DNA of 64,000 bases from the NCBI RefSeq assembly GCF_050003625.1, contig NC_134398.1:102725886-102789885 (forward strand), given 5' to 3'. The translations under genes were made by a program, and so were the position numbers. Shown here one piece after another: positions 12,958 to 36,454 of the stretch. Position 1 is the stretch's first letter; each line of letters starts with the position of its first letter. The notes under the pieces are model-generated. The model was given only the letters and a program-made list of their open reading frames with translations. It was not told the DNA's origin and did not search any database. Source of the stretch: Haematobia irritans. Lineage: Eukaryota; Arthropoda; Insecta; Diptera; Muscidae.

Positions 12958-14331
12958 ATGGAACAGTCGAATGCTCAAATGAATGGGTATGAAATTTTTT
13001 ATCTTGCTGGTTCGATAATGAGGGGTAATCAACAGGGTGCTGCCGCCCCGAATATTGGGCAACCTCAAGAACCTAATATTGCCCCAAATGGCACTTATCA
13101 GAACCAGGAGGCTGGTGAGACATTTCCACCAGGTGTGAGAGATATGGTTCAAGATGAGGCCGCATCCGTTCAGCGATCTCTGGAGGATAAGGTCAGGGAT
13201 ATGGTCAGGAATGAAATGAGTGATGTTAGGAAGATGATTGATTCATTGGCCAAGGGTATGAGTGAGCTTTCAGAGGCTGTTCGTAAACAGGCACCTGCTC
13301 CTCAAACACAAAATACGCCGTCTGCTAACTCTAACAACCAGGTGAGCTGCGGGGGTCAAATGAATACATTACCGGCTTCAACTAGTAGTGGCACATACTC
13401 AAACGTTCAAACGCCGAGATCATCACCGATGCCCTCTGACAACAATGCTATCGTGAACATTCCTAATGGTAACAATGAACCTCTTAGAATCAGAGTGGAC
13501 AAATTAGGACTGAATTTCAGTGGAGATCCAAGAGATCTCCGTGTTAATGATTTCATTTACAGACTGGAGATAATGCAAGAACAATACAACATTCCCTGGT
13601 CTGAGGTATTGAGGGATTTTTCATTCTTAGTTTCTGGCCAGGCGAGGGAATGGTATTGGCTGCATAGACGGAACAGTACAGATACTGACTGGGAGGGACT
13701 AAAACATGCTTTGCGGGACCAATATCAGTCGCCACAATCGAAGTTCGACATACTGAGGGAACTACTCGAAAGGAAACAACGACATAATGAGACAGTAAAC
13801 GGATATTTTCACGAAATGGGGATATTGCGCTCGCGGTTAATGCAACCAATATACGAATATGAAATGATTAAGATTTTAAAAGGAAACATCAGAGAAGACC
13901 TAAGGCGTCACGTTTATCAAATGACAATATCGTCCGTGGAACAATTGCGTATTGAAGCTGAGCGTAATTTTCCCCGACGTGAAAATAGACCCATGCCTAT
14001 ACCACCACGACCGACTAGACAAGTTAATGAAATTTATGACCATGAATATGACTGCCCTAGTGAGGAATCTTCAGTAGATATGCTAGAAAATGTGTCAGCA
14101 CTTCGCGGCCCAACTCAAACGAAGACGAAGATCACTTGCTGGAATTGCCGCGAAGCTGGACACATGTTTATGGATTGTCCTGCAGATTTCAGGAGATTAT
14201 TTTGCTACCGATGCGGAAAGCCTGATACTGTAACCCCTAAATTTCCGGTGTGTCAGGGAAACCCGAAGAAGGGCGTGGAGGATACAGGGGAACTACGTCC
14301 GTCCGAAGTCCCTGTGACACAAAACAATTAG
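12958..14331 (+). CDS. gag: gag of element A
   Basis: This is a 457-residue capsid/nucleocapsid protein that would package the element RNA in cytoplasmic particles. The first 170 residues are low-complexity (Gln, Asn, Pro, Ser rich). A capsid-like region follows from about residue 175 (LGLNFSGDPRDLRVNDFIYR) to about 350. The C-terminus has a CX2CX4HX4C knuckle (CWNCREAGHMFMDC) and a second finger without His, CX2C...FX2C. In the related gag at 50.6-51.4 kb the Phe position is Cys, so this copy has probably lost one zinc ligand. The frame is intact from ATG to TAG. It overlaps pol in the -1 frame at a slippery site. Confidence 0.88.
   Translation: MEQSNAQMNGYEIFYLAGSIMRGNQQGAAAPNIGQPQEPNIAPNGTYQNQEAGETFPPGVRDMVQDEAASVQRSLEDKVRDMVRNEMSDVRKMIDSLAKGMSELSEAVRKQAPAPQTQNTPSANSNNQVSCGGQMNTLPASTSSGTYSNVQTPRSSPMPSDNNAIVNIPNGNNEPLRIRVDKLGLNFSGDPRDLRVNDFIYRLEIMQEQYNIPWSEVLRDFSFLVSGQAREWYWLHRRNSTDTDWEGLKHALRDQYQSPQSKFDILRELLERKQRHNETVNGYFHEMGILRSRLMQPIYEYEMIKILKGNIREDLRRHVYQMTISSVEQLRIEAERNFPRRENRPMPIPPRPTRQVNEIYDHEYDCPSEESSVDMLENVSALRGPTQTKTKITCWNCREAGHMFMDCPADFRRLFCYRCGKPDTVTPKFPVCQGNPKKGVEDTGELRPSEVPVTQNN
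14256..14262 (+). promoter_or_regulatory. candidate -1 frameshift site GGGAAAC (gag-pol, A)
   Basis: The heptamer is in the X-XXY-YYZ register with gag codons GGA and AAC. Slipping back one base places the ribosome in the pol frame, which is open from here to the B insertion. The same heptamer in the same register and position relative to the second zinc finger occurs at 51327-51333. Confidence 0.75.
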
Positions 14332-14499
14332 AAGATAAGGGACTTCACATTTTTGTTAATAATAATAAGATTAGAGAAAATAAAGATAAAACTAGGATCG
14401 ATTATAAGAATTTTACACCGGCTGAGAGACACTATATACCACTGGAGCAGCGTAAAGAAAACTATGAGAAAGTTCGGGAAAGAATTTTTAACTCGGATG
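14262..14499 (+). pseudogene. pol: pol of A, N-terminal spacer, cut by insertion
   Basis: The -1 frame encodes a spacer ahead of the protease (TPAERHYIPLEQRKENYEKV). It ends at GATG 14496-14499, where the B composite begins. After the composite the frame resumes in phase at 30571, with GATG repeated. The reading frame was therefore continuous before the insertion. Confidence 0.8.
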
Positions 14500-14566
14500 T
14501 TTAGTAATAAAAAAAGACTTTTCTTCTTTAGCACAAATTTATTACTGCTCTTCAAAAAACAGAAAG

Positions 14567-14569
<3 letters not shown>

Positions 14570-14615
<46 letters not shown>
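14570..14615. repeat. (TA)n microsatellite
   Basis: About 22 TA units occur inside the B LTR. Other B LTR copies have only four to nine units at this place. Confidence 0.9.
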
Positions 14616-14617
<2 letters not shown>

Positions 14618-14898
14618 CAAAAATTAAAATCTAGAATATTCTTTGACAGAAGTACAACAAAACGTTTTTTGAGCATTTCTTTTCAAATAACAAACAATCA
14701 TACATACATTCAAATGTATAATGTAAAAAATAACATATTGGTAACACGAACAAATATACATAACACATAATTAAATCCTTTTATGGAATTTCATCAAATT
14801 CATATATGTACAAACAAATTAGGATGACAAGGAAAAACAAAGCCTACTGGTAATTTTAAAATATATATTCATAATATAACATAAATATACATATATAT

Positions 14899-15501
14899 TG
14901 TGACGAATTTGATAATTATAGACATAAGTTTATTTAAATTAGTTTCCGTTAATTTAAAATTTCAAATTGTAACGATAAAATTTCGCTATCACTTCTTGGA
15001 ATCATCTATTCATTTTCTAGTATTTTCCTGAATTTCTTTTATGTTCTTTTGTTTGCTTACCGAAATGTTAGTTCTTACTCTCTCATAGAATAACAACCCC
15101 TTTGCTTTGTTATTTTGCTTTCTCATTTCATCTCATTGTCTATTGTCATTGTTGTTGTAGTAATGCGAGCATATATCTATGTGAGTGTGTATGTGTTTGG
15201 CAGCCACCAGACGAATAACTTAATGGTCGTAGATCCTTCTAGCCTTGTCTAAGAATGTTATGGCGTTGCCAGAATATTGTAGTGCTACCAGAATGTTCTC
15301 GTATTGCCACACCGTCATATATAAAAGCGCTCACATGCTTCTAACGAGTCAGTCTTAATTAAAGCGTCAAACGAATAACTTCAGTGTGAACGAATTGTAA
15401 AGTGTGAAGTCATAGTAAATAAATTGTAGATTGTCGTTATTTAAAAGAACTGTGTTTTAATTGTCCGGTAATTAAAAACGCCTAAATATAAAAACGTAAC
15501 A
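14899..15501 (+). repeat. 5' LTR of C (603 bp)
   Basis: It starts TGTGACGAATTTG and ends AAAACGTAACA. The TATATAAAAGCGCTC segment at 15318 is a plausible TATA box, with transcription starting shortly after near the TCAGTC-type initiator at 15350. Confidence 0.9.
15318..15352 (+). promoter_or_regulatory. probable core promoter in C 5' LTR
   Basis: A TATATAAAAG box is followed about 30 bp downstream by GAGTCAGTCTTAA, an arthropod initiator-like TCAGT. This segment is absent from the shortened 3' LTR. Confidence 0.55.
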
Positions 15502-15503
15502 AT

Positions 15504-15520
15504 TGGTGTCAGAAGTGGGA
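15504..15520 (+). promoter_or_regulatory. primer-binding site of C
   Basis: TGGTGTCAGAAGTGGGA starts two bases after the LTR end. It is complementary to the 3' end of a leucine-type tRNA ending in CCA (from memory of the family). Element B has the related TCAGAAGTGGGAT. Confidence 0.75.
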
Positions 15521-15540
15521 TAACGAAAAAAAAATCTACA

Positions 15541-16920
15541 ATGAAGTTTAATGAGCTTCGTGTGGAAGACTTAAAAAAGGAATTGAGCAAACTGGAGCTG
15601 CCGACAACAGGCAATAAGGCCCAGCTTCAAAAGCGTCTACTGGAAGAGTTTGAACGGCGTAATATGGACATTGCGACGCATGAGTTTGATTATAAGGAAG
15701 ACATTGATGAATCAATACTCGTCAATACAAGCAGTGTAGAAACTCCATCTGTGGCTTCGAGTGTTGTGGATTACACATCAATGCTCAATGTTTTGAGCAA
15801 AATGATGGAAGAAAACTCTAGAAAAATCATGGATGAGAATTCTAGAAAAATGGAAGAAAATTCTAGAAAATTGCTTAAAGAAAATGCCCTACAAATGGAA
15901 GCAAGTTCTAGAAAATTGGAAGAAAAATTCGACGAAAATTCTAGAATTCTCAATGAAAAACTACAACAAATTTCTGAAGGCATGGAAAAACGTGTGGACC
16001 ATATAGAAAATCAAATTGTGGAATTGGATAAGAAAGTTCTTTCTGTGGATGAGAAAATTATGGTTCATGATGAGAAGTTTCTGCACATCGAGAAAAAAAT
16101 GTCAGAGCTGGAAATTAAAGGTGGTCCAGTGCGCGTCATTGAGGGCTCAAAAATCAAAACTCCTCTTTTCGATGGCTCAACGTCATTTGATGTCTTCAAA
16201 TTACAATTCGAAATGGTTGCTTCTAGAAATTTGTGGAATGACGATGATAAAGCAATTGAACTTCTATTGGCATTAAAGGGCAATGCTGCTGATGTGATAC
16301 AAAGCATTCCCGCTGCTTCTAGAAATAACTATAATGAAGTAATAGCGGCGCTTCAACGCAAGTATGGTGGAGAGCACAAGCAAGACATCTTTAGAATGGA
16401 ATTAAGAGGTAGAGTCCAGAAATCAAACGAGACTCTACAAGACTTTGCAACAGAAGTTGAGCGGTTGGTGCTACTGACATACCCAGGAGAGAGTCACCCA
16501 CTTGTGGACCGCATCAAAATTGAGACCTTTGTGAATGGCATTCGAGACCCAGACATAAAATGTGCAACATATGCGTCACAAAAGGCTACATTCGCAGAAA
16601 CAGTAACATTTGCACTTGCGCAAGAAACTGCGAGATTGCTGGCACGGCCTCAAATTCACAAAATACGCAGAGTAGAGACCGAGTGTGAAGAATCGAAATC
16701 TATCATTGACTCGATGAAAGAGGCAATGAAGCAGGTAATGCAAGAATTGAAACAGGATGCAACTAAATCCCGAATCAAATGCTATAACTGTGATAAGACG
16801 GGACATCTAGCTCGAGAATGCAAAGCACGACGCAAACGGTCAAGATCCACATCACCATCTCCATTAAACAATAACCATAAGAAGGTGACCCCACAGTCAA
16901 GTGAGTCACCTTTAAACTAA
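15541..16920 (+). CDS. gag: gag of element C
   Basis: This 459-residue protein opens with a SAP-type helix-extended-loop-helix (residues 5-40, LRVEDLKKELSKLELPTTG), a DNA-binding fold also seen at the start of the B gag. A long coiled coil with ENSRK repeats spans about residues 85-200. A capsid-like region follows (about 215-370), then one zinc knuckle CYNCDKTGHLAREC near residue 413 and a basic tail. The ATG at 15541 is 20 bases after the primer-binding site and is the first start. The gag stop TAA at 16918 is immediately preceded by the slippery heptamer TTTAAAC. The frame is intact. Confidence 0.93.
   Translation: MKFNELRVEDLKKELSKLELPTTGNKAQLQKRLLEEFERRNMDIATHEFDYKEDIDESILVNTSSVETPSVASSVVDYTSMLNVLSKMMEENSRKIMDENSRKMEENSRKLLKENALQMEASSRKLEEKFDENSRILNEKLQQISEGMEKRVDHIENQIVELDKKVLSVDEKIMVHDEKFLHIEKKMSELEIKGGPVRVIEGSKIKTPLFDGSTSFDVFKLQFEMVASRNLWNDDDKAIELLLALKGNAADVIQSIPAASRNNYNEVIAALQRKYGGEHKQDIFRMELRGRVQKSNETLQDFATEVERLVLLTYPGESHPLVDRIKIETFVNGIRDPDIKCATYASQKATFAETVTFALAQETARLLARPQIHKIRRVETECEESKSIIDSMKEAMKQVMQELKQDATKSRIKCYNCDKTGHLARECKARRKRSRSTSPSPLNNNHKKVTPQSSESPLN
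16911..16917 (+). promoter_or_regulatory. -1 frameshift site TTTAAAC (gag-pol, C)
   Basis: The heptamer sits in register as T-TTA-AAC directly before the gag stop TAA. A -1 slip enters the pol frame, which is open from here to 20501; upstream of about 16902 the -1 frame is closed. The heptamer is one of the most efficient known slippery sequences. Confidence 0.85.
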
Positions 16921-19900
16921 ATCGAGCTAGTTCAGCGGGGCAAGAGCTGGCTCCCACAGACGATGGCCCCACCATCTCCATATCAATAGTTCAACAGAAA
17001 AATAACAATTTAACTATTGCGGGTGTTGTTAATGGCGACAAGCGTACTTTGACGTTGGATACTGGTGCATCAAAGTCTATCATTAGATCTGATTTAGTAA
17101 AAGGAAAAGTTACACCACTGATTGGAGTCAAGCTACGCACGGCTACAGGGGAACCCGCAACCGTATATGGAAAGGTCGCCGTAAAATTAACTATTGCTAA
17201 CAAATCCGTTACTTATGATTTCATTGTGGCCGATATAATAGACGAAGTTATAATTGGAGCGGATTTCATGATTGCTTTTGGTATCAATCTGGATATGAAG
17301 CGTCGTGTAATGACATGGTGCGATGCCGAAATAACTGTAAACGTGGGCTATAGTGAGAATACACCCGTCAGACGTTTGACAACGAGCCAGTCAGAGTCTA
17401 TACCACCGAATGCCGAAGCAATTATATGGGTTCCTATGAATGGAGATTGTGAAGTCGGCCAATTGTGGGTTGTTGAACCAGCAGAAAACAAAAGCAACAA
17501 CATCTTGATAGCAAATGCCCTGGTAACAACGAACGAAGAGAGACTAATACCAGTTCGTGCCTTGAACTTGTCTGACAATCACGAGCAAATTGTAAAATTT
17601 TCTGACATTGGCAAATGTACACCAGTCGAGGCAATAGTCAATTTGGAAGGCAACTCATCAAAGACACATGGAGCAGTGAGAAAACATCTAGAAGCGTATG
17701 TCGAGGCTTGGACACGTCATCTATCGCCGTCAGAGAGAAATAAAGCCAAGCAATTGTTGTGGAAAAACGCCTGTGCTTTTGCTTCTGAAAAGGGAAATCA
17801 AGGAAGAACATCTGTAGTGAAACATGAAATTAAAACCGCAGAAGAAAGGCCCATAAAACAGGCACCACGAAGTGTTCCCCTGGCAAAAAGAGACGAAGTT
17901 CAAAAGCTCATAAAGGAAATGGCGGAGAGTGGAGTGATCGAGCCATCATCAAGTCCTTGGTGTTCCCCAGTTGTGCTGGTCAAAAAGAAAGATGGAAGTA
18001 CCCGATTCTGCGTGGACTACAGAAAACTGAATGATGTCACCAAAAAGGACAGTTATCCGCTTCCACGCATTGATGACACGTTGGACACACTAGCCGGAAC
18101 AACGTGGTTTTCTACGCTTGATTTGCAGAGTGGATATTGGCAAGTAGAGATCGCTGTGAAAGACAAGGAAAAGACGGCTTTTGGCGTTAATGGCGGTCTC
18201 TGGCAATTCAATGTAATGCCGTTCGGGCTCTGCAACGCTCCGGCTACCTTCGAAAGATTGATGGAGCGGGTACTGAAGGGGTTGCACTGGAAGTCGTGCT
18301 TGATATACTTGGACGACATCATAGTGATGGGCAAAACATTTGACGAGCACCTTAAGAACTTGAAAGACGTTATCCAGCAATTGTCAGCCGCTGGTCTACG
18401 CCTTAACGCAAAGAAATGCTCCCTTTTCCAGCGGGAAGTTAAATACCTGGGCCATCATGTGACTGCAGAGGGCATATCCACCGATGAAGACAAAATCCAA
18501 GCTGTCAGAGATTGGCCACGACCCCGAAATCTCCACGAATTAAGAAGTTTCCTTGGGTTATGTACATATTACCGACGATTCGTCCCAAACTTCGCCAGCA
18601 TCGCCGCTAGTCTCCATAAATTGACGCAAAAAGGTCAGAAGTTCCAGTGGAGCGACGAACAGGAGGATTCATTCCAACACTTAAAAGAACTTTTATGTTC
18701 AGCTCCTGTTCTAGCGTATCCTATTCCGGGCGAAAAATTTGTTTTGGATACAGATGCTAGCGAGCATGGTATTGGAGGTGTGCTATCCCAACAGATAGAC
18801 GGCAAGGAGAAGGTCATCGGATATTTCAGCCGAACGTTGTCCAAGCCCGAAAAGAACTACTGTGTAACGCGACGAGAGCTGTTAGCCGTCATAGAGAGTG
18901 TAAAACATTATCATAAATATTTGTATGGACAACACTTCTTGCTCAGGACTGATCACTCAGCTCTACGATGGTTGCTCCAATTCAAGAATGCGGAAGCTCA
19001 ACTGGCACGTTGGATCGAGAGGCTCCAGAGCTATGATTTTAGTATCGAGCATAGAAAAGGTGGAAAACACGGTAACGCTGACGCTTTGTCACGTCGACCT
19101 TGCAGTATAGAATGCAAGCACTGCTCGAAGGCTGAACATAAGGAGGAGATTGTTGATATTCGGCTGTTACACATCGAATCTGGAGTGGACTGGCCAACAG
19201 AACAGCGTAAAGATCCCATTTTGAACAAAATTATTTCGGCAAAGGAAGAGCATAAGAAGCCCAGTAAGAAAGACATCGCAGCCGAAAGTCCACTTATGAA
19301 ATCATACTGGGCTCAATGGGATAGTTTAGTTCTAGCCAATGGATCCCTGCAACGTAAATGGGAAAGCGAAGATGGCAAGAGCAGCCGAAATTTGATCATC
19401 GTTCCAGATTCCAAAATAAGAGACGTTTTGGCGGAGTTCCATAATGGTCCCAGTGGAGGTCATCTGGGAATAACCAAAACCGCCGATAAAGTGAAGCAAC
19501 GATTCTACTGGGTTGGATGCCAGAAATCAATTGCTGAATGGGTAGCCAATTGCGAGAAGTGCATGAAGGCGAAAGGTCCAACAAGGAAAAGTCGAGGTCC
19601 TATGCAAGAATATAGACCAGGAGCCCCGTTTGAAAGAATAGCAATGGACGTGGCAGGCCCTTTCCCAGTAAGTGATTCTGGAAACCGTTATGTCCTTGTG
19701 GTCATGGATTACTTCAGCAAATGGCCGGAGGTGTATGCAATTCCAAACCAAGAGGCAAAAACGATTGTGGATGTGGTCAACAAAAACTGGATATGTCGCT
19801 ACGGTGTGCCGTCCGAGATTCACTCAGACCAGGGAAGAAATTTTGAATCGGCCATATTCAAAGAGATGTGTGAATCCCTTGGTATCAAGAAAACGAGGAC

Positions 19901-20501
19901 TACACCATTACATCCACAATCCGATGGCATGGTAGAAAGGTTTAATCGCACTCTGGAAGAACATCTTCGAAAAGTAGTGGACAACGGCCAGAGGGACTGG
20001 GACGAGCATATACCAAAGTTTTTGCTGTCGTATAGATCTGCCATTCATGATTCCACCTCTCGAACACCGGCCAATGTTCTATTCGGAACTGAGTTGACGT
20101 TGCCTGGAGATCTGATATTCGGCGCTAAACCTAATGAGCTCGCCATGGAAGAAAACAGAAACGACATCCCAAACACTTTCGGTGAAGTTCACGAATCAGT
20201 GCGCAACAAAATAAAAATGGTCAGCAACAGAATGAAGGCGAGATACGATCGTGCTGTAAATACTAAGGGCTTCCAAGAAGAAGAATTGGTTCTGCTATTT
20301 AACCCGCAACGAAAGAAAGGATTGTGTCCTAAACTGCAAACACAGTGGGAAGGCCCATACAAAGTCATCAAGAGGATCAATGATGTTGTATACCGGATTC
20401 AGAAGGACGACAGCCCTAGATCAAAGATGAAAGTTGTACATCTGGAACGATTGGCTCCTTACGGAACAGGTTCTGTGCCTGTTCGGGACGAACAGGCTTA
20501 A
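16917..20501 (+). CDS. pol: pol of element C (protease-RT-RNase H-integrase)
   Basis: A single open frame of about 1,195 codons is entered by -1 frameshifting. Counting from 17049, the aspartic protease motif LDTGASKSII is at about residue 3, RT has FCVDYRKLND near 320 and the catalytic YLDDIIVMG near 420, and RNase H has LDTDASEHGIGG near 565. Integrase has its HHCC finger (GGHLGITKTADK ... CEKCMKAKG, about 800-840) and a DDE core: Asp in AMDVAGPF near 864, Asp in SDQGRNFES near 926, Glu in GMVERFN near 962, with 35 residues between the last two. Everything needed for reverse transcription and integration is present without a break. The stop at 20499 is followed by the polypurine tract. Confidence 0.96.
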   Translation, partial: LNRASSAGQELAPTDDGPTISISIVQQKNNNLTIAGVVNGDKRTLTLDTGASKSIIRSDLVKGKVTPLIGVKLRTATGEPATVYGKVAVKLTIANKSVTYDFIVADIIDEVIIGADFMIAFGINLDMKRRVMTWCDAEITVNVGYSENTPVRRLTTSQSESIPPNAEAIIWVPMNGDCEVGQLWVVEPAENKSNNILIANALVTTNEERLIPVRALNLSDNHEQIVKFSDIGKCTPVEAIVNLEGNSSKTHGAVRKHLEAYVEAWTRHLSPSERNKAKQLLWKNACAFASEKGNQGRTSVVKHEIKTAEERPIKQAPRSVPLAKRDEVQKLIKEMAESGVIEPSSSPWCSPVVLVKKKDGSTRFCVDYRKLNDVTKKDSYPLPRIDDTLDTLAGTTWFSTLDLQSGYWQVEIAVKDKEKTAFGVNGGLWQFNVMPFGLCNAPATFERLMERVLKGLHWKSCLIYLDDIIVMGKTFDEHLKNLKDVIQQLSAAGLRLNAKKCSLFQREVKYLGHHVTAEGISTDEDKIQAVRDWPRPRNLHELRSFLGLCTYYRRFVPNFASIAASLHKLTQKGQKFQWSDEQEDSFQHLKELLCSAPVLAYPIPGEKFVLDTDASEHGIGGVLSQQIDGKEKVIGYFSRTLSKPEKNYCVTRRELLAVIESVKHYHKYLYGQHFLLRTDHSALRWLLQFKNAEAQLARWIERLQSYDFSIEHRKGGKHGNADALSRRPCSIECKHCSKAEHKEEIVDIRLLHIESGVDWPTEQRKDPILNKIISAKEEHKKPSKKDIAAESPLMKSYWAQWDSLVLANGSLQRKWESEDGKSSRNLIIVPDSKIRDVLAEFHNGPSGGHLGITKTADKVKQRFYWVGCQKSIAEWVANCEKCMKAKGPTRKSRGPMQEYRPGAPFERIAMDVAGPFPVSDSGNRYVLVVMDYFSKWPEVYAIPNQEAKTIVDVVNKNWICRYGVPSEIHSDQGRNFESAIFKEMCESLGIKKTRTTPLHPQSDGMVERFNRTLEEHLRKVVDNGQRDWDEHIPKFLLSYRSAIHDSTSRTPANVLFGTELTLPGDLIFGAKPNELAMEENRNDIPNTFGEVHESVRNKIKMVSNRMKARYDRAVNTKGFQEEELVLLFNPQRKKGLCPKLQTQWEGPYKVIKRINDVVYRIQKDDSPRSKMKVVHLERLAPYGTGSVPVRDEQA

Positions 20502-20512
20502 GCGGGAGGCAG
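20501..20512 (+). promoter_or_regulatory. polypurine tract of C
   Basis: AGCGGGAGGCAG lies immediately before the 3' LTR and would prime plus-strand synthesis. Confidence 0.75.
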
Positions 20513-20628
20513 TGTGACGAATTTGATAATTATAGACATAAGTTTATTTAAATTAGTTTCCGTTAATTTAAAAGAACTGTGTTTTAATTGTCCGGTAATT
20601 AAAAACGCCTAAATATAAAAACGTAACA
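20513..20628 (+). repeat. 3' LTR of C, shortened to 116 bp
   Basis: The first about 50 and last about 65 bp match the 5' LTR, but 487 bp in between are missing, including the promoter. The break lies at an 8-bp direct repeat ATTTAAAA present at both deletion borders in the 5' LTR. Confidence 0.92.
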
Positions 20629-20778
20629 ATATATATAAAACTAAAGTACTCTCAAAGAAATTTGTTAGTTCAATGAATGAAAATTCATAAACATATAACT
20701 ATATATACTAAAAATATGCTACAACTCGGCTATCCTGACAATGAGACACCTGGTCTCATCATATAACCTTCTCTACCC

Positions 20779-23376
20779 CTAATTACTTTTTTTCCAAGGA
20801 CGCATACTTGCAACCGCCCATACGCCACTATATGGTGCTCGCGAATGTTGGAACCCATCAACGTCTTTGAGCAAGTATCTGTCATTTCTTAAAACTTTGC
20901 ACACCCTAAACGGTCCCTTAAATTTTGGCAAAAGTTTTCATGAAACACCAGACGAAGAGTCGAAGTTCTTTATCATTACGTAATCGCCCTCCTTGTAAAC
21001 AATTGCTTCCTTTCTTTTTCTAGATGTATAATCCTCATTGTAGCTTTGCAAGGCTTGCTGCTTTTTTGATGCTTCAATTCGGATTGCCTTGCTGTCAACC
21101 GGTTTTGAAATAACTACTTCTGACAAATTCTCCCTTAACAGATCAACCACTTTACCCCTTTGACCAACTCCAAACAGCATAATACTAGGATGTTCGCCTA
21201 TAGATCTGTGCACCGTGTTATTGAGGGAATATTCCACTTTATCTAAAATACTATCCCAATAAACACCCCTCTCGACGTCAACAAGTTTAGCTATCATTGG
21301 ACCCAATGATCGGTTGACCCTTTCCACCTGGCCATTTGCTTGTGGAGAACCAGTTGCTATTTTTATGTGTGCAACGTTGTTCTCCTTCAAAAATTCTTCA
21401 AAATCCTTGGATGTAAAACAAGACCCTCTATCACTTATTATGCATCTCGGACGGCTATATGACCTGAAATAATACTTCAATGCTAATATCGCCTCTTTCG
21501 TGTTTGTAGTCTTCGTCGGATATAATCTCACGAATTTTGTGCAAGCATCTATCACCACCAAAATATGTTTAACGGGCCTGCCATTATCCACCGGTCCGAA
21601 ATGGTCTATATGAACCACGTCAAAAGGATTTACAGATTTCGGTATACTATGAACCTGGCCTTCTATCTTACCACTGTTTCCAGAGTAAACTATACATTTA
21701 AGGCAGTTCCTAATATGTGTCAAAGCCTTTTCCCGCATTTTCGGAAACCAGTACGTTTTTCTTATTAGTTCCGTCATTTTATCAGCGCCTACATGTCCTA
21801 ACTCATCATGATACTTATATAAAAAATGATTTTCCATCTCCTCTGGGACATAGAACAGTATATTGCCCTCATTCATCTTTCGATATAATACGCCGTTACG
21901 CATTTCATACATACTATGCTCACCCTTTTGCAATTCACTCTTAATGCGAATCATCCGTTCGTCCCTATTTTGACAAATTACAAGGTTTTCCTCGAATGTG
22001 TTTGTTTCTATTGTCATAATATTAGTACTCCTGCTGAGAGCATCTACGTGCTGCATCCTTTTGCCTGATCGATGTTCGAGATCAAATTCATAATTCTGAA
22101 GTTCTAAGGCCCATCTAGCAATACGTGGATTAAGATCCTTCTTATTAAGAGTTAATGTTAACGAATTACAGTCTGTTACTATTTTGAACTTTTTACCTTG
22201 AAGGTATGTATGAAATCTTTTCAGGGCATAAATAATAGAAAGAGTTTCCAACTCGAAACTGTGGTATCGTGATTCGGTATCAGTAGTCCTTTTCGAAAAA
22301 TAAAAGATTGGATGAAATTTTCCAACGGACTTTTTCTGCAATAAAACCGATCCAAATCCAATTGAACTAGCATCGCAGTGAAGTTCAGTTTCGTCCCTAG
22401 GGTCATATAAGGCCAATACGGGAGCTTTTACTAAACATTGTTTTAATTGTTCAAATGCCTTCACTTCTGCCTCACCAAAAACAAACTTTTTGTCCTTTTT
22501 TGTTAAATCGTACAAAGGTTTCGCAATCAATGAAAAATCTTTTACAAATCTCCGAAAATACGAACAAAGTCCCAGAAATGACTGAACTGCGTGTTGTCGG
22601 TCTGGAAGTGGAAAATTTCTGATTGCTTCTATGCCGTTTTCGTTTGCTCTTATTCCATGCTCACTAATAAAATACCCTAAATATTCTACCGACGTCTTTA
22701 GAAATTCGCATTTATCCAACCTCAATTCCAGATTATTTTCTACCATCCTTGTAAATACATCTTTCAAAATTTCGATATGTTCGTCAATATCTTTTGTTCC
22801 TATCATAATGTCATCGAGATATATTATAATCTTATCATCCTTTATCATATCGGCAAATACCTTCTGTACATACCTCTGAAATACAGATGGAGCATTCTTT
22901 AAGCCAAATTGCATCCTAAGAAATTCGAATTGACCTAATGGTGTGACAAATGACGTATATTTCACTGAATCGGAATGGACAAACACATGAAAAAACGCAT
23001 TTTTTAAATCTATTTTCGTGAAAAATTTCTTACCCGACAGCCTGTCCAACAAATCATCAATCAAAGGTATGGGAAAATTATCTTTAACTGTGACTTTATT
23101 TAACGTTCGAAAATCAATACACATTCTGATATCTCCCGTCTTCTTTTTGACAAGTACAATAGGTGATGCATACTCTGAGTCACTTGGCCTTATATAATCT
23201 TTTTCTAAATAGTCATCTAAAATAGTCTGAAGTTGGTTCTTCTCACTATATGATAATCTTCTGGGTGTATAACTGAATGGTTTATCGCTAGTCAAAGAAA
23301 TTTTCATTTCACCATATATTTGTGGTTTCGAAGGACGTTCAGGGCTCTCATAATAGTCATAAACTGTCTCGTGCAA
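20779..23376 (-). pseudogene. pol: pol of element B (RT-RNase H-integrase)
   Basis: An 812-codon open frame on the minus strand (23376 to 20938) starts inside pol, upstream of RT. RT shows CIDFRTLNKV and the catalytic YLDDIMIGT, RNase H shows LHCDASSIGFG, and integrase shows its HHCC finger (DELGHVGADK ... CLKC). The DDE core has Asp in HIDHFGPVD, Asp in SDRGSCFTS and Glu in GQVERVN, again 35 residues apart. An in-frame TGA at 20940-20938 cuts it, but the same frame continues for about 50 residues to a TAG at 20779, so only the extreme C-terminus is lost. The 5' part of the gene (gag, protease) is missing: at 23379 it abuts a plus-strand LTR head to head. Confidence 0.9.
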
Positions 23377-23496
23377 TTTTTAGTATATATAGTTATATGT
23401 TTATGAATTTTCATTCATTGAACTAACAAATTTCTTTGAGAGTACTTTAGTTTTATATATATATATATATATATGTATATTTATGTTATATTAGTA

Positions 23497-24431
23497 AAGG
23501 GTGATTCTTTTGAGGTTAGGATTTTCATGCATTAGTATTTGACAGATCACGTGGGATTTCAGACATGGTGTCAAAGAGAAAGATGCTCAGTATGCTTTGA
23601 CATTTCATCATGAATAGACTTACGATCTGCCACAACGTCGAATTTTCAGTGAATGGGCCCTAGAAAAGTTGGCAGAAAATCCGCTTTTTTATCGACAAAT
23701 TTTGTTCAGCGATGAGGCTCATTTCTGGTTGAATGGCTACGTAAATAAGCAAAATTGCCGCATTTGGAGTGAAGAGCAACCAGAAGCCGTTCAAGAACTG
23801 CCCATGCATCCCGAAAAATGCACTGTTTGGTGTGGTTTGTACGCTGGTGGAATCATTGGACCGTATTTTTTCAAAGATGCTGTTGGACGCAACGTTACGG
23901 TGAATGGCGATCGCTATCGTTCGATGCTAACAAACTTTTTGTTGCCAAAAATGGAAGAACTGAACTTGGTTGACATGTGGTTTCAACAAGATGGCGCTAC
24001 ATGCCACACAGCTCGCGATTCTATGGCCATTTTGAGGGAAAACTTCGGAGCACAATTCATCTCAAGAAATGGACCGGTAAGTTGGCCACCAAGATCATGC
24101 GATTTGACGCCTTTAGACTATTTTTTGTGGGGCTACGTCAAGTCTAAAGTCTACAGAAATAAGCCAGCAACTATTCCAGCTTTGGAAGACAACATTTCCG
24201 AAGAAATTCGGGCTATTCCGGCCGAAATGCTCGAAAAAGTTGCCCAAAATTGGACTTTCCGAATGGACCACCTAAGACGCAGCCGCGGTCAACATTTAAA
24301 TGAAATTATCTTCAAAAAGTAAATGTCATGGACCAATCTAACGTTTCAAATAAAGAACCGATGAGATTTTGCAAATTTTATGCGTTTTTTTTTTTTAAAA
24401 AATGTTATCAAGCTCTTAACAAATCACCCTT
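23497..24431 (+). mobile_element. mariner-like element D1 (DD41D type)
   Basis: The ends AAGGGTGATT / AATCACCCTT are flanked by TA (23495-23496, 24432-24433). The 935-bp copy is shortened at the 5' side of its gene. An identical insertion site and nearly identical sequence occur at 27033-27967, because the surrounding segment was duplicated. Confidence 0.9.
23669..24322 (+). pseudogene. mariner transposase D1, N-terminally truncated
   Basis: A 217-residue open frame contains the whole catalytic core: Asp in FSDEAHFW (residue about 15), Asp in WFQQDGATCH (about 111) and Asp in TPLDYFLWG (about 153). Forty-one residues separate the last two, which matches the rosa (DD41D) group of mariner. The N-terminal helix-turn-helix region that binds the ends is missing, since the full protein should be near 340 residues. 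It therefore cannot act alone. All three catalytic Asp residues are kept, unlike the sister copy at 27205. Confidence 0.85.
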
Positions 24432-24813
24432 TATATATTCTAAAATTACCAGTAGGCTTTGTTTTTCCTTGTCATCCTAATTTCTTTGTACATATATGAA
24501 TTTGATGAAATTCCATAAAAGGATTTAATTATGTGTTATGTATATTTGTTCGTGTTACCAATATGTTATTTTTTACATTATACATTTGAATGTATGTATG
24601 ATTGTTTGTTATTTGAAAAGAAATGCTCAAAAAACGTTTTGTTGTACTTCTGTCAAAGAATATTCTAGATTTTAATTTTTGTAATATATATATATAGGCT
24701 TTCTGTTTTTTGAAGAGCAGTAATAAATTTGTGCTAAAGAAGAAAAGTCTTTTTTTATTACTAAAATTCAGAAGTGGGATAAGAAATCCAAGTGAAGATT
24801 TTTTTTTTTTACA

Positions 24814-25974
24814 ATGGACGTCATAGCGGATAACTACACTGTCCTTCAATTACGCCGTTGGTTGCAACGTATAGGATTGAGCTCCAGCGGGTCAAAAAGT
24901 GCCCTCGTTCTTCGACTAAATAGTGTGCCGGCCGAAAAACGTGGAGAATGCCCCAAAGAAATATCCGATGAAGTGAATGCATTAGAAGGAGAAAATGCTG
25001 AAAAAGAATCTGTCAATTTAATTCAATTTCCGGAGTCAAAACTATGCGAAGACAGCCAAGGTGAGGAAATTTTGGATTCGGAAGCATGTAACAATATCCG
25101 GCACCCAACTCACGCTGCTGGCGTTCCTATGTTAATTGAACTTTTAAAAATGGAATTGGATATCACAAAAAGAGAAAAAAATTTGCTTGAGAAAGAAAAT
25201 TTATTTCTGCAAATGAAAAATCACGAAGGAACAACATCTGATTGTGGCACTAAAGAAGAGAAAATTTTGAAATGTGATACCATGAGAAATGTTGTTGCTA
25301 ACCATTCACTATTGAGAGAGTTTATTTTGGATTATGATGGAACCAGTTCAGTGGAAGTGTGGGTTACTCAATTGAAACATATTTGCGAATCTTACGCTGC
25401 TGACGAAAATGCTATTAAAGCACTGTTAATGTGTAAACTGAAAGGAAAAGCCCAAATGTGGCTATATGCCCAACCAGATTTTGTAAAACGGAGGTCGTGT
25501 GATCTTCTTGAGGAAATGAAAAATGTGTTTTCTACCAAAGAAAGTAAGATGGTACTACGGCATAGATTCGAGTCTAGAAGATGGATATATGGCGAATCAT
25601 TTATGGAATACTACAATGCCAAAATTCTTCTCGCCAACAAGATAAGTATTGATGAAGACGAATTAATTGACTGCATCATAGACGGAATTCCGGATGAGCA
25701 GCTTAAGATTGAATTTAATCACACTATTTTTAATATTGATGTAGAGAATGATGGTAAACGTGAGTTGAAAGTAGGGGAGGATTTGGATCATTTGACAAGG
25801 AAAAAATTGCACGAGACATTTTATGACTATTATGAGAGCCCTGAACGTCCTTCGAAACCACAAATATATGGTGAAATGAAAATTTCTTTGACTAGCGATA
25901 AACCATTCAGTTATACACCCAGAAGATTATCATATAGTGAGAAGAACCAACTTCAGACTGTAGCATATTTTTAG
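24814..25974 (+). pseudogene. gag: gag of B, unit 1, internally deleted
   Basis: The N-terminal SAP-like segment (LQLRRWLQRIGLSSSGSKSA), coiled region and capsid region match unit 2 at 28366 almost perfectly. After GIPDEQLK the sequence jumps about 610 bp relative to unit 2, losing both zinc knuckles and the protease, and resumes at FNHTIFNIDV. It then reads into the beginning of RT (PRRLSYSEKNQLQT) and stops at the LTR junction. The deletion keeps the frame open over 386 codons. Confidence 0.88.
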
Positions 25975-26193
25975 TATATATAGTTATATGTTTATGAATT
26001 TTCATTCATTGAACTAACAAATTTCTTTGAGAGTACTTTAGTTTTATATATATGTATATTTATGTTATATTATGAATATATATTCTAAAATTACCAGTAG
26101 GCTTTGTTTTTCCTTGTCATCCTAATTTGTTTGTACATATATGAATTTGATGAAATTCCATAAAAGGATTTAATTATGTGTTATGTATATTTG
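25970..26193 (+). repeat. B LTR (plus), truncated at duplication joint
   Basis: The LTR starts at 25970 and stops inside its middle at 26193, where it is joined to minus-strand pol sequence also found at 22658. No mariner is present here. Confidence 0.85.
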
Positions 26194-26918
26194 TCCATGC
26201 TCACTAATAAAATACCCTAAATATTCTACCGACGTCTTTAGAAATTCGCATTTATCCAACCTCAATTCCAGATTATTTTCTACCATCCTTGTAAATACAT
26301 CTTTCAAAATTTCGATATGTTCGTCAATATCTTTTGTTCCTATCATAATGTCATCGAGATATATTATAATCTTATCATCCTTTATCATATCGGCAAATAC
26401 CTTCTGTACATACCTCTGAAATACAGATGGAGCATTCTTTAAGCCAAATTGCATCCTAAGAAATTCGAATTGACCTAATGGTGTGACAAATGACGTATAT
26501 TTCACTGAATCGGAATGGACAAACACATGAAAAAACGCATTTTTTAAATCTATTTTCGTGAAAAATTTCTTACCCGACAGCCTGTCCAACAAATCATCAA
26601 TCAAAGGTATGGGAAAATTATCTTTAACTGTGACTTTATTTAACGTTCGAAAATCAATACACATTCTGATATCTCCCGTCTTCTTTTTGACAAGTACAAT
26701 AGGTGATGCATACTCTGAGTCACTTGGCCTTATATAATCTTTTTCTAAATAGTCATCTAAAATAGTCTGAAGTTGGTTCTTCTCACTATATGATAATCTT
26801 CTGGGTGTATAACTGAATGGTTTATCGCTAGTCAAAGAAATTTTCATTTCACCATATATTTGTGGTTTCGAAGGACGTTCAGGGCTCTCATAATAGTCAT
26901 AAACTGTCTCGTGCAATT
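26194..26918 (-). pseudogene. pol: duplicated piece of B pol (RT)
   Basis: Base-for-base copy of 22657-23378 on the minus strand: N-terminal pol, fingers and palm including YLDDIMIGT, cut after YLGYFISEHG. It is open but truncated, and stands head to head with the next LTR just as the longer copy does. Confidence 0.9.
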
Positions 26919-27032
26919 TTTAGTATATATAGTTATATGTTTATGAATTTTCATTCATTGAACTAACAAATTTCTTTGAGAGTACTTTAGTTTTATATAT
27001 ATATATATATGTATATTTATGTTATATTAGTA

Positions 27033-27967
27033 AAGGGTGATTCTTTTGAGGTTAGGATTTTCATGCATTAGTATTTGACAGATCACGTGGGATTTCAGAC
27101 ATGGTGTCAAAGAGAAAGATGCTCAGTATGCTTTGACATTTCATCATGAATAGACTTACGATCTGCCACAACGTCGAATTTTCAGTGAATGGGCCCTAGA
27201 AAAGTTGGCAGAAAATCCGCTTTTTTATCGACAAATTTTGTTCAGCGATGAGGCTCATTTCTGGTTGAATGGCTACGTAAATAAGCAAAATTGCCGCATT
27301 TGGAGTGAAGAGCAACCAGAAGCCGTTCAAGAACTGCCCATGCATCCCGAAAAATGCACTGTTTGGTGTGGTTTGTACGCTGGTGGAATCATTGGACCGT
27401 ATTTTTTCAAAGATGCTGTTGGACGCAACGTTACGGTGAATGGCGATCGCTATCGTTCGATGCTAACAAACTTTTTGTTGCCAAAAATGGAAGAACTGAA
27501 CTTGGTTGACATGTGGTTTCAACAAGATGGCGCTACATGCCACACAGCTCGCGATTCTATGGCCATTTTGAGGGAAAACTTCGGAGAACAATTCATCTCA
27601 AGAAATGGACCGGTAAGTTGGCCACCAAGATCATGCGATTTGACGCCTTTACACTATTTTTTGTGGGGCTACGTCAAGTCTAAAGTCTACAGAAATAAGC
27701 CAGCAACTATTCCAGCTTTGGAAGACAACATTTCCGAAGAAATTCGGGCTATTCCGGCCGAAATGCTCGAAAAAGTTGCCCAAAATTGGACTTTCCGAAT
27801 GGACCACCTAAGACGCAGCCGCGGTCAACATTTAAATGAAATTATCTTCAAAAAGTAAATGTCATGGACCAATCTAACGTTTCAAATAAAGAACTGATGA
27901 GATTTTGCAAATTTTATGCGTTTTTTTTTTTAAAAAAAAGTTATCAAGCTCTTAACAAATCACCCTT
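27033..27967 (+). mobile_element. mariner-like element D2, duplicate of D1
   Basis: AAGGGTGATT ends and TA (27031-27032, 27968-27969). It is almost identical to D1, in the same LTR position. Confidence 0.9.
27205..27858 (+). pseudogene. mariner transposase D2, third catalytic Asp replaced by His
   Basis: A 217-residue frame like that of D1, with two amino-acid changes visible. One turns TPLDYFLWG into TPLHYFLWG (GAC to CAC at about 27652), removing the third metal-binding Asp; the other is Ala to Glu in NFGEQF. With the missing N-terminus this copy is doubly inactive. Confidence 0.88.
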
Positions 27968-28365
27968 TATATATTCTAAAATTACCAGTAGGCTTTGTTT
28001 TTCCTTGTCATCCTAATTTCTTTGTACATATATGAATTTGATGAAATTCCATAAAAGGATTTAATTATGTGTTATGTATATTTGTTCGTGTTACCAATAT
28101 GTTATTTTTTACATTATACATTTGAATGTATGTATTTGATTGTTTGTTATTTGATGTTTGTTATTTGAAAAGAAATGCTCAAAAAACGTTTTGTTGTACT
28201 TCTGTCAAAGAATATTCTAGATTTTAATTTTTGTAATATATATATATAGGCTTTCTGTTTTTTGAAGAGCAGTAATAAATTTGTGCTAAAGAAGAAAAGT
28301 CTTTTTTTATTACTAAAATTCAGAAGTGGGATAAGAAATCCAAGTGAAGATTTTTTTTTTTTACA

Positions 28366-30135
28366 ATGGACGTCATAGCGGATAACTACACTGTCCTTCA
28401 ATTACGCCGTTGGTTGCAACGTATAGGATTGAGCTCCAGCGGGTCAAAAAGTGCCCTCGTTCTTCGACTAAATAGTGTGCCGGCCGAAAAACGTGGAGAA
28501 TGCCCCAAAGAAATATCCGATGAAGTGAATGCATTAGAAGGAGAAAATGCTGAAAAAGAATCTGTCAATTTAATTCAATTTCCGGAGTCAAAACTATGCG
28601 AAGACAGCCAAGGTGAGGAAATTTTGGATTCGGAAGCATGTAACAATATCCGGCACCCAACTCACGCTGCTGGCGTTCCTATGTTAATTGAACTTTTAAA
28701 AATGGAATTGGATATCACAAAAAGAGAAAAAAATTTGCTTGAGAAAGAAAATTTATTTCTGCAAATGAAAAATCACGAAGGAACAACATCTGATTGTGGC
28801 ACTAAAGAAGAGAAAATTTTGAAATGTGATACCATGAGAAATGTTGTTGCTAACCATTCACTATTGAGAGAGTTTATTTTGGATTATGATGGAACCAGTT
28901 CAGTGGAAGTGTGGGTTACTCAATTGAAACATATTTGCGAATCTTACGCTGCTGACGAAAATGCTATTAAAGCACTGTTAATGTGTAAACTGAAAGGAAA
29001 AGCCCAAATGTGGCTATATGCCCAACCAGATTTTGTAAAACGGAGGTCGTGTGATCTTCTTGAGGAAATGAAAAATGTGTTTTCTACCAAAGAAAGTAAG
29101 ATGGTACTACGGCATAGATTCGAGTCTAGAAGATGGATATATGGCGAATCATTTATGGAATACTACAATGCCAAAATTCTTCTCGCCAACAAGATAAGTA
29201 TTGATGAAGACGAATTAATTGACTGCATCATAGACGGAATTCCGGATGAGCAGCTTAAGGTACAAGCCAATTTACAATGTTTTGGAAATAAAACACAACT
29301 TTTGCAAGCTTTCTCAAAAATCGAGTTGAAACAGCCGAAGTCGACGAATAAAAATCCCAAATTGAAGTGCTACAATTGTAACTCTTTTGGACACATTGTC
29401 ACAGATTTCCCAAAGCCAAAAATTGAAAGAGGTGCATGTTTCAACTGTGGAAGTAAGGATCATCGCATTGCGGAGTGTTCAACATCTAATACTGTGGCTC
29501 TGGTGGAAGACAACGATTATGTAAGGTACTTTAGATTTAGTCTAGATTATGATTTCAAAAATTATTTTTATATAGAATGCTTAATTGATTCTGGAAGTCC
29601 GGTTAGTTTTGTTAAGAGGTCGGCTGTTGAAGGAATAATTGATATGGAGAATCTTACTTGGTCTCATTATAATTTTTATGGACTAAATAAAAGTAGGTTG
29701 GATGTATTCGGGAAATTTGAGTGTTTCGTTTTAGTTGGGGGCATTTCATTTAAATTGGAAATGCTTGTTGTTTCTGATAATAGTATGCAACATTCTTGTG
29801 TGTTAGGAAGGGACTTTTTGCGGAAAGGTAATTATGAATTAGTCCCTAAAGAAATTGTGGATGTAAGGAATGAATTTAATCACACTATTTTTAATATTGA
29901 TGTAGAGAATGATGGTAAACGTGAGTTGAAAGTAGGGGAGGATTTGGATCATTTGACAAGGAAAAAATTGCACGAGACATTTTATGACTATTATGAGAGC
30001 CCTGAACGTCCTTCGAAACCACAAATATATGGTGAAATGAAAATTTCTTTGACTAGCGATAAACCATTCAGTTATACACCCAGAAGATTATCATATAGTG
30101 AGAAGAACCAACTTCAGACTGTAGCATATTTTTAG
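28366..30135 (+). pseudogene. gag: gag-protease of B, unit 2, fused to start of RT
   Basis: A 589-codon single frame holds the SAP-like N-terminus (residues about 8-42), coiled/capsid regions and two zinc knuckles near 335-365. The first is CYNCNSFGHIVTDF, where the last Cys is Phe; the second, CFNCGSKDHRIAEC, is complete. A protease motif LIDSGSPVSFV is near 405. The frame ends about 20 residues into the RT region at NQLQT, where DNA jumps to the sequence just before the 3' LTR. Gag and protease share one frame here, unlike A and C, so B seems not to need frameshifting between them. The rest of pol exists only on the minus strand of the composite. Confidence 0.88.
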
Positions 30136-30570
30136 TATATATAGTTATATGTTTATGAATTTTCATTCATTGAACTAACAAATTTCTTTGAGAGTACTTT
30201 AGTTTTATATATATGTATATTTATGTTATATTATGAATATATATTCTAAAATTACCAGTAGGCTTTGTTTTTCCTTGTCATCCTAATTTGTTTGTACATA
30301 TATGAATTTGATGAAATTCCATAAAAGGATTTAATTATGTGTTATGTATATTTGTTCGTGTTACCAATATGTTATTTTTTACATTATACATTTGAATGTA
30401 TGTATGATTGTTTGTTATTTGAAAAAGAAATGCTCAAAAAACGTTTTGTTGTACTTCTGTCAAAGAATATTCTAGATTTTAATTTTTGTAATATATATAT
30501 TGGCTTTCTGTTTTTTGAAGAGCAGTAATAAATTTGTGCTAAAGAAGAAAAGTCTTTTTTTATTACTAAA
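30131..30570 (+). repeat. B LTR (plus), right end of composite
   Basis: A complete 440-bp LTR without the mariner; it ends TTACTAAA and is followed by the GATG target copy. Confidence 0.88.
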
Positions 30571-32695
30571 GATGTGAGGGTTATACCCGGAAAAATCTCC
30601 AAAATAAGGAAAAAGGCAAAAGAATGGCGTGAGCAAAGGAAATACTTAATAGACTCGTTGGCAAGGATTACGAAAGTTTCTAATGATCCCAGGGCTTTTT
30701 CCGAAATTGATATTATGGGGAAAAGGATCAAGGGATTATTGGATTCTGGCGCAACAGTCAGTATTTTGGGGAAAAACTGTAGAGAAGTAATCGAAGAGTT
30801 AGAAATTCCTATTATACCACTTTCGAGCAAAGTTACTACTGCTGGAGGGACAAGTTATAGGGTTCTGGGTAAAGTAAAAGTTAATATTCACTACCAAAAT
30901 CAAGAAAAGGAAATGTTTTTGTACTTATGCCCAGATTTGGAGCAATATTTATACCTTGGGATTGACTTTTGGCGAATGTTCCATTTAGCCCCCGAACTCA
31001 TAGGCGTATCCGAAATAAACATTGAAAAAGTTACCAATAATATGGCAAATCCAGATGTAAAATACAAACTCAACCCTCATGAACTTTCTAATGAACAATC
31101 CGAACGGTTAAAACAGACAATAGAAAAATTCAAAACGTTCGAGAAACATGGTTTAGGATGTACATCGTTAGAAAAACACTCAATCAAGCTGATCGATGGG
31201 GCAGAACCGGTAAAAGATCGGCATTATCCAATGTCTCCTGCTATACAAGCCATAACATACGAGGAAGTTGACAACATGTTAGCTCTAAAGGTTATCGAAG
31301 AAAGTGAAAGTCCCTGGAGCAACAGAACAACCATAGAACGGAAACCGGGGAAAAATCGTTTCTGTTTAGATGCCCGCAAGTTAAACAATTTGACCGTAAA
31401 AGACGCCTATCCCCTCCAAAATATAGATGGAATATTGAGTCGAATTGACGAAACCCACTTTATAAGCAGCGTGGACCTTAATTACGCTTTCTGGCAGATA
31501 GAGCTAGATGAAGAGAGCAAGTCGTATACAGCCTTCACGGTTCCAGGTCGTCCATTGTACCAGTTCCGTGTGATGCCTTTCGGCTTGTGCAATGCCGCAC
31601 AACGATTATGCCGTCTGATGGACAATGTCATTCCCCAAAGACTAAAGGAGAATGTTTTTGTGTACTTGGACGACTTTCTGGCAATTTTGACGAGCATCTG
31701 AGGTTTCTCAGCGAAGTGGCTGAATGTCTGCAGAAAGCTGGTCTCACCATAGGACTGAAAAAGTCGCAATTTTGTTTCCGTCAATTGAAATATTTGGGTT
31801 TCATAATTGGAGAAGGGGTATTGCGCACTGATCCTGATAAAATTGAGGCGATCAACAAAATAAAAGTACCAAAAAACGCCCGCGAAGTGCGAAGTTTCCT
31901 TGGTACCGCTGGATGGTACCGAAGATTTATTAAGGATTTCGCCACAATCTCGGCTCCACTCACAGACACGCTAAAAAAGTCTGCCAAGTTCAATATGGAT
32001 GAAAAAGCAAAAGAGGCGTTCGAAAAACTTAAAAAGGCCTTAACCTCGGCGCCCGTTTTGCGACACGCCGATTTTTCAAAACCCTTTTTCATTCAATGTG
32101 ACGCATCGGAGTATGGTATAGGAGCAGTTCTGTTCCAATTAAATAGCCAGAAGGAAGAACACCCTATAGCCTTCTACTCACAAAAGCTCAATAAATGTAA
32201 AAGAAACTACAGTGTCACTGAAATAGAGTGCCTGGCGGCGGTGATGGCAATTAAGAAGTTTCGGCCCTACGTTGAACTGATGGAATTTACGGTGATTACA
32301 GATCATTCGAGTTTGCAATGGCTAATGAGTCTAAAAGATCTTACTGGTCGTTTGGCTCGGTGGTCATTGCAACTCCAAGGATTCAATTTCAAAATCGAAC
32401 ATCGGAAAGGCAAGGACAACGTAGTGGCCGATATGCTATCCCGCTTCTCCATAGTAGACGAACTGGAAATGGACCAAGTATTTGAGTTCGAAACGGCGGA
32501 ATTCGAGAGTGACGAATACAAAGAGCTCAGGGAGGAGATAGAAAAGAATAAAGAACGGCTACCGGACTTGCGTGTTGCAGGAAATATGGTATTTAAGAGG
32601 AGTTTGGATTCTGACTTTCGGGATTCCCAAGAATTTCAGTGGAAGTTGTGGGTTCCGGAATCTTTGACGCAAATTCTAATCGAACAAGCCCATGA
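30571..32695 (+). pseudogene. pol: pol of element A (protease, RT, RNase H), integrase lost
   Basis: The frame continues in phase from 14499. Protease has LLDSGATVSILG. RT has FCLDARKLNNLTVKDAYPL, VDLNYAFWQIELDEE, MPFGLCNAAQRLC and the catalytic VFVYLDDFL near 31660. A small deletion just after YLDD (about 31685) shifts the frame, and the second part (31587-32807) resumes with FDEHLRFLSE, then RNase H (FIQCDASEYGIGAVLF) and its end. At IEQAHEN, just ahead of the integrase zinc finger, coding homology stops near 32695. Integrase is absent, so this copy could move only with help. Confidence 0.88.
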
Positions 32696-36452: not shown

Positions 36453-36454
36453 TA

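Follow-up and report, generated by a model that had tools for sequence, protein, structure and literature searches.

The window analysed here is a 64,000-nt stretch of the Haematobia irritans genome (C2:102725886-102789885, on contig NC_134398.1; genome size 1.17 Gb). Within it, a long terminal repeat (LTR) retrotransposon of a family that we call B sits inside the pol gene of a second retrotransposon, A, with the same LTR end, U5, facing outward on both borders and a copy of GATG directly outside each. We consider it likely that B DNA already carrying U5 at both termini was inserted into A pol by one concerted integrase reaction, which duplicated GATG. The structure of the ends requires that two U5 ends were integrated or, very improbably, that two insertions struck the same four bases, and it suggests preformed, rearranged DNA as the simplest source of such an insert. 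A first-pass annotation of the window had proposed the integration of a preformed rearranged molecule with two identical ends, and these data support that proposal.

The left border of the insert reads GATG followed by TTTAGTAATAAAAAAAGAC... (14496/14500), and the right border reads ...GTCTTTTTTTATTACTAAA followed by GATG (30570/30574); the insert (14500-30570) presents an identical U5 terminus of the LTR (...ATTACTAAA) outward at both borders, in opposite orientation. The outer arms are reverse complements from the outermost base inward (14500-14898 and 30207-30570), with few substitutions and one TA-repeat expansion between them. An inverted-repeat scan of the whole window (exact seed of 40) yielded 26 outer ends, TA runs included, and this pair alone had the same four bases outside. 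When the left flank, a single GATG and the right flank are joined, the A reading frame is open, with no stop (...RERIFNSDVRVIPGKISKIRKK...). The shared U5 end, the exact duplication and the in-phase rejoining of the host pol frame had all been described in the first-pass annotation, and each is confirmed by these sequences.

14496..14499, no strand: left GATG, target-site duplication copy (one GATG at the empty site in L057)
30571..30574, no strand: right GATG, target-site duplication copy (from the sequence; one GATG at L057)

A search for the empty site, with 135 nt of joined A flanks as query, returned 11 matches: the two window halves and nine other A copies, in all of which (9/9) the site is uninterrupted. 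The best match is 100% identical, lies ~78 kb from the insertion site on the opposite strand, and falls within a near-copy of the A locus.

C2:102657000-102666900, inverted relative to window 10633-37113: L057, 9.9 kb, near-copy of the A locus

L057 matches window A at 98.4-98.6% identity in three long stretches, carries most of the transposon found in the left LTR of A (10754-11528, 96.6%), and also matches the right flank of A (36632-37113 at 94.6%, partly twice), with 35177-36631 unmatched. From these alignments it is probably a rearranged duplicate of the same A locus, produced by a young segmental duplication. B is absent from L057, which has a single GATG; window positions 14500 and 30571 map to its positions 4401 and 4397, an overlap of 4 bp. 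Because L057 has no B and one GATG, the repeated GATG of the window can be taken as a genuine target-site duplication, and the objection, anticipated in the first-pass annotation, that it might be a two-copy coincidence with no empty allele was not borne out. The other eight A copies are gapless at the site, with GATG in three and GAGG or GAAG in five.

Family B belongs to the Ty3/gypsy type (Pfam matches to RVT_1, RT_RNaseH, Integrase_H2C2 and rve, in that order, at 20941-23379 on the minus strand), and the window copy, with its inverted outer LTRs, is an aberrant member. A gag search of the genome returned 20 matches (three window rows, three near-identical copies, and 14 rows at ≤73%). A pol search returned at least 49 (four window rows, the same three copies, one 411-bp fragment, and 41 rows at ≤73%), a lower bound because 40 of 65 first-look candidates were scored. 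An LTR search returned 26 (eight window rows, six LTRs of the three complete copies, three solo LTRs, one 85% copy, and eight short matches). Our count of B loci leaves out the eight short LTR matches (42-80 bp) and the 411-bp pol fragment on C5. Each of the three complete copies is ordinary, 5.2 kb long, with the order LTR-gag-pol-LTR and direct LTRs (3/3). The other full-LTR loci (three complete copies, three solo LTRs and the 85% copy) have, in seven cases out of seven, one U3 and one U5 end with a 4-bp duplication (TTAT, ACAG, ACGT, AAAT, GTAA, TTTC, TATG), and their LTRs start TGTAGCAT and end ACTAAA (7/7). With the window and the 85% copy counted, a 4-bp duplication is present at 8/8 full-LTR loci, of which the window copy alone has no U3 end at a border. 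The seven ordinary loci imply that the window ends are true U5 termini and that the duplication length is the family's own. A 5-bp duplication is excluded by the solo LTR at C3:231528931 and by the window ends, which allow 4 bp only; the other six loci would fit 5 bp too.

The first-pass annotation had suggested searching for further B copies with inverted LTRs and for the internal pol/LTR joint at other places. The other full-LTR loci are ordinary, and no second rearranged copy emerged from the gag, pol and LTR searches of the genome (the pol list being a lower bound). A mobile composite family was dropped on the same searches. The 411-bp B pol piece on C5 (G000:C5:12947801-12948211; L045, L046) has two mismatches to the window and is flanked on both sides by the words GGTCTTCAGTTCCC; it looks like a captured fragment within another repeat. 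Among the 120 listed relatives of a B reverse-transcriptase piece, the organisms named are insects and spiders.

The 16 kb between the two GATG copies, described in the first-pass annotation as one composite, is, by its layout, the product of several events, with an original insert of ~5.8 kb. Its parts are as follows; the joints J(a) and J(b) are the internal boundaries between pol and LTR.

14500..14898, minus strand: left inverted LTR of B, U5-side part (outermost base is the LTR 3' end)
14899..20628, plus strand: element C, Ty3/gypsy-type, nested in the left B LTR (ordinary, with its own direct LTRs)
20629..20723, minus strand: left inverted LTR of B, U3-start part (TGTAGCAT begins at 20723)
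20724..20739, minus strand: 16 nt matching the 5' end of tRNA-Leu in all but one base, immediately preceding the LTR and reading GTCAGGATAGCCGAGT
20938..23379, minus strand: B pol, with reverse transcriptase, RNase H and integrase (open frame of 813 aa)
23376..23381, no strand: joint J(a), pol(-) to LTR(+), shared ATTTTT
23376..24765, plus strand: middle B LTR, split by a transposon fragment with an open frame of 234 aa at 23618-24322
24796..25974, plus strand: first gag copy, 609 bp shorter by deletion and continuing into the pol start
25959..26194, plus strand: truncated LTR, ending at the joint of the tandem duplication, where one T (26194) is shared
26194..30355, no strand: second copy of the tandem duplication, comprising pol(-), LTR with transposon fragment(+), gag(+), pol start(+) and LTR start(+)
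28348..30135, plus strand: second gag frame, undeleted (SAP, zinc knuckle), fused to the pol start
29963..30119, plus strand: 157 bp of pol start, shared ATTTTT included (inverted copy at 23225-23381)
30120..30570, plus strand: right LTR of B, 451 bp, TGTAGCAT...ATTACTAAA, beginning exactly at the LTR boundary (joint J(b))

The original layout is best read as LTR(-), pol(-) joined to LTR(+) without 8 nt, gag(+), 157 bp of pol(+), and LTR(+); this supports the earlier description of pol and gag on opposite strands (pol minus, gag plus). Element C, the transposon fragment, the tandem duplication and the gag deletion all came after integration. Element C is 5.7 kb long and splits the left LTR of B; it has direct LTRs (TGTGACG...CGTAACA, the right one internally deleted) with ATAT on each side, a gag with SAP and zinc knuckle, a pol with reverse transcriptase, RNase H and integrase, and the primer-binding site TGGTGTCAGAAGTGGGAT. 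The transposon fragment in the middle LTR is putatively mariner-like; its 234-aa frame has no Pfam match. It predates the tandem duplication (first copy 22654-26194; duplicated length ~3.5 kb), since both tandem copies hold it. The 609-bp loss in the first gag postdates the duplication, since the second gag still has those bases.

Sequence divergence bears on the age of the composite. Six LTR columns tell the three complete copies apart, and at each of these all window LTRs (left, middle, right) that cover the column have the same letter. The left and right window LTRs differ by 2 substitutions in 456 positions (gaps ignored), and the two LTRs within each ordinary copy differ by 2, 0 and 2 in 449 (gaps ignored). 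Compared with the left and right LTRs, the first middle LTR has 2/324 and 2/325 substitutions in its 3' part; the second middle LTR copy has five differences, three of them beside a local 16-nt insertion. Across 2478 pol columns, the window copy carries 10 private substitutions and the other copies 9, 6 and 11. The composite is about as old as the ordinary B copies because its LTR and pol divergence are similar, and the three window LTRs were probably identical at the start, products of one birth.

The internal joints constrain how a molecule with two U5 ends could have formed. At J(a) (23376-23381), the reversed pol start meets the LTR at its ninth base; the first 8 nt of the LTR are gone, the two sides share a 6-nt microhomology (ATTTTT), and the pol side ends at a 10-nt purine run, AAGGAAAAAA. 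At J(b) (30119/30120), pol runs directly into base 1 of the LTR, a single T being common to both sides; such an exact LTR start is what an integrase reaction or a plus-strand end would leave. The pol stretch between the two breakpoints is present in both arms (152 bp from the end of the purine run, 157 with shared bases). Both U3 ends would have been lost into the internal joints before integration: one, trimmed by 8 nt, would have been joined head-on to the pol start at J(a) through the microhomology, and another, cut at the LTR boundary, joined ~150 bp further into pol at J(b).

The route that we favour is auto-integration, in which the U3 end of one B complementary DNA (cDNA) would have attacked the pol of a second cDNA at J(b), near an internal plus-strand start. 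The released pol-LTR arm may then have been filled in to its plus-strand start after the purine run AAGGAAAAAA and end-joined to the remaining U3 end at J(a), such that the overlap of the arms (152/157 bp) would represent the stretch from the plus-strand start to the integrase cut. The body of the second cDNA could later have been lost through LTR-LTR recombination of the kind that left three solo LTRs in B. This route would explain three features together: the precise LTR start at J(b), the shared bases at J(a) and the overlap of the arms. Garfinkel et al., in 2006, reportedly linked auto-integration of Ty1 to a central DNA flap (as cited in PMC4751563 and PMC2644782).

Several observations weigh against this account. 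The sequence of J(a) marks it as something other than an integrase joint; purine runs of ≥9 nt number 17, the one at J(a) among them, across the 4.3-kb internal region of a single ordinary copy, and the A-run at J(a) could reflect a choice of microhomology. The shared T leaves the exactness of J(b) uncertain by 1 nt, and the internal breakpoints overlap by 157 bp, where the family's stagger would offset them by 4 bp. The internal plus-strand start would be, for family B, purely hypothetical, and the route needs a second cDNA together with the later loss of its body. The first-pass annotation had offered auto-integration or a strand-switch dimer as the origin of the molecule; the exact LTR start at J(b), to within the shared T, would fit auto-integration, whereas J(a), with its missing 8 nt and 6-nt microhomology, is unlike an integrase joint.

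Other origins for the same ends were weighed against these joints. A head-to-head dimer of two full B cDNAs, fused U3 to U3 and integrated by both U5 ends, is possible but doubtful: it accounts for the survival of U5 ends only, and the 10-kb palindrome so formed would then have shed its centre, giving J(a), and the greater part of one pol, giving J(b). Long palindromes are well known to lose their centre by microhomology, which the six shared bases at J(a) fit, and the pol breakpoints lie at near-mirror positions in the two arms, as though one cut had passed through a folded palindrome. The insert, however, holds no surviving U3-U3 junction, and under a dimer the exact LTR start at J(b) becomes a coincidence. 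We find it unlikely that reverse transcriptase instead switched strands during minus-strand synthesis, starting at U5, stalling in the A-run of the pol start, jumping by way of ATTTTT to a completed minus strand, close to the U3 end of that strand, copying LTR and gag, and making a second jump out of pol to the start of the LTR. A template jump would be expected to leave microhomology such as that at J(a), and internal pol-to-LTR deletions are common in LTR elements; yet this scheme calls for a complete minus strand as the acceptor and for two distinct jumps, one of which must fall precisely on the LTR boundary.

Rearrangement in the genome after an ordinary insertion appears very improbable. 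If, for example, another B had entered this GATG in reverse orientation and the palindrome centre had then been deleted, the same ends would result, with J(a) as a microhomology deletion; but this calls for two independent insertions into one and the same 4-bp target in a 1.17-Gb genome that yielded eight full-LTR B loci. One LTR haplotype is moreover common to both arms, and the LTR places listed include no pile-up of B outside the window. A simple inversion of an ordinary insert would have left a U3 end beside one GATG, where there is none. Assembly error, with two haplotypes or loci joined inside the segment, we judge highly improbable as well: long repeats can mislead assemblers, and L057 shows that the region is duplicated, but L057 has no B, and the window contains no N anywhere and so no marked scaffold gap. 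Within the pol overlap, the one private base of the left arm also recurs in both tandem copies of that arm and in neither right-arm copy.

A second observation, perhaps the weightier one, concerns the sequence before the 3' LTR. Directly 5' of that LTR, B carries the 16 nt GTCAG(G/A)AT(A/G)GCCGAGT at all four loci with a pol end (the window, L029, L031 and L034). Three relatives at 66-70% pol identity have the same block (L042, 4121; L043, minus strand, 4031; L044, minus strand, 3975), and the bases 5' of it differ. A search for the block in the loci collected (≤3 substitutions) found one more match away from any B LTR, in L033. By comparison with published tRNA sequences, the block reads as a sense copy of the 5' end of tRNA-Leu. 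For tRNA-Leu-CAA, GTCAGGATGGCCGAGTGGTCTAA and the reverse primer TGTCAGAAGTGGGATTCGAACG have been published (PMC7555719), and the same tRNA-Leu 5' sequence is given elsewhere (PMC10505166). The primer-binding site of B, which follows its 5' LTR, reads AT and then TCAGAAGTGGGAT; it is complementary to the 3' arm of this tRNA but lacks the bases that would pair with CACCA. Element C has AT and the full TGGTGTCAGAAGTGGGAT after its 5' LTR.

A polypurine tract would be expected directly before the 3' LTR; in the last 20 nt there, the purine runs of B, L042 and L044 reach at most 4 nt. The control for this rough measure is weak, with values of 6 in C and 4 in A (the LTR edge of A being uncertain). 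It is conceivable, if improbable, that in the B clade the same tRNA-Leu primes the minus strand and, by a 5' fragment, the plus strand, with U3 ends that may be unreliable and an integrase that accepts either terminus; the A and C controls lowered these odds. At the 16-nt block, a 5' piece of the tRNA paired with the minus strand could serve as plus-strand primer, and if so, tRNA-primed, unreliable U3 ends and an integrase taking either terminus would explain a two-U5 insert. Ty3 has a second tRNA contact in its 3' region, made through hybridisation to the tRNA (PMC5371799); the B block lies instead in the sense of the tRNA. The B LTR starts TGTAGCA and ends with the complement of TTTAGTA, and the LTR of L044/L015 (taken as one element, with inferred LTR edges) starts TTTAGTA and ends with the complement of TGTAGCA. 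The termini thus look swapped between relatives, as if the U3 and U5 termini were interchangeable in the clade. A hairpin upstream of the tRNA-like block was rejected, as it is not the lowest-energy fold in two of three sequences, and a pattern search of viral contigs for a tRNA-like block before an LTR gave 0 matches.

The host element A, also Ty3/gypsy-type, is divided by the insert as follows.

10633-35401, plus strand: host element A, whole
10633..14495, plus strand: left half of A, with LTR (interrupted 10793-11859), gag (12883-14331) and pol start
30575..35401, plus strand: right half of A, with pol in two overlapping frames and LTR (34947-35401)

The pol of A resumes at 30575, and its frames to the right of the insert (30532-31701 and 31512-32807) match protease, reverse transcriptase and RNase H. 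The insert in the left LTR of A (10793-11859) is transposon-like and contains a helix-turn-helix frame, with HTH_24 over the cut-off and other helix-turn-helix matches weak. The 351-nt stretches upstream of two reverse-transcriptase places near the window gave no blastn match to A. Tandem arrays lie at 3104-4078 (spacing mostly 153 bp) and 57385-57758 (spacing 17-18/35 bp) of the window.

Integrases of retroviruses and LTR elements normally pair one U3 with one U5 end, and test-tube reactions are known to pair two like ends as well. With its two U5 ends, correct duplication and matching empty site, a natural chromosomal insert of this kind is a clean germ-line record of such an event, and inverted LTR pairs within a short exact duplication can be searched for in any long-read genome. 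Among the literature matches listed (titles and abstract openings, with most subscription journals outside the search), there were neither inserts with inverted LTRs or two U5 ends nor tRNA-primed plus strands, which argues only weakly for absence. We set aside an identity as a DNA transposon or Maverick-like element bounded by terminal inverted repeats, as the frames encode gag and reverse transcriptase-RNase H-integrase, with DNA polymerase matches in 0/8 frames.

The window copy resembles DIRS elements in having inverted terminal repeats at its two ends. DIRS elements use a tyrosine recombinase and are not known to make a target-site duplication; B, in contrast, has an rve-type integrase and a GATG duplication, which rule out DIRS identity. 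With ordinary Ty3/gypsy-type elements, B shares the gag zinc knuckle and the order reverse transcriptase-RNase H-integrase, and its three complete copies share the direct LTRs and 4-bp duplications; the window copy differs from them in that its outer LTRs are inverted and its gag lies on the strand opposite to pol. Ty1 and retroviruses are known to auto-integrate, giving inverted and truncated circles (PMC4751563, PMC2644782). Those products (inverted 2-LTR and truncated 1-LTR circles) are like B in having a U3 end joined inside their own DNA and inverted arms. They are circles and dead ends, whereas B is a linear, chromosomal two-U5 product with a target-site duplication, which suggests that products of auto-integration or dimer type can be rescued by integration.

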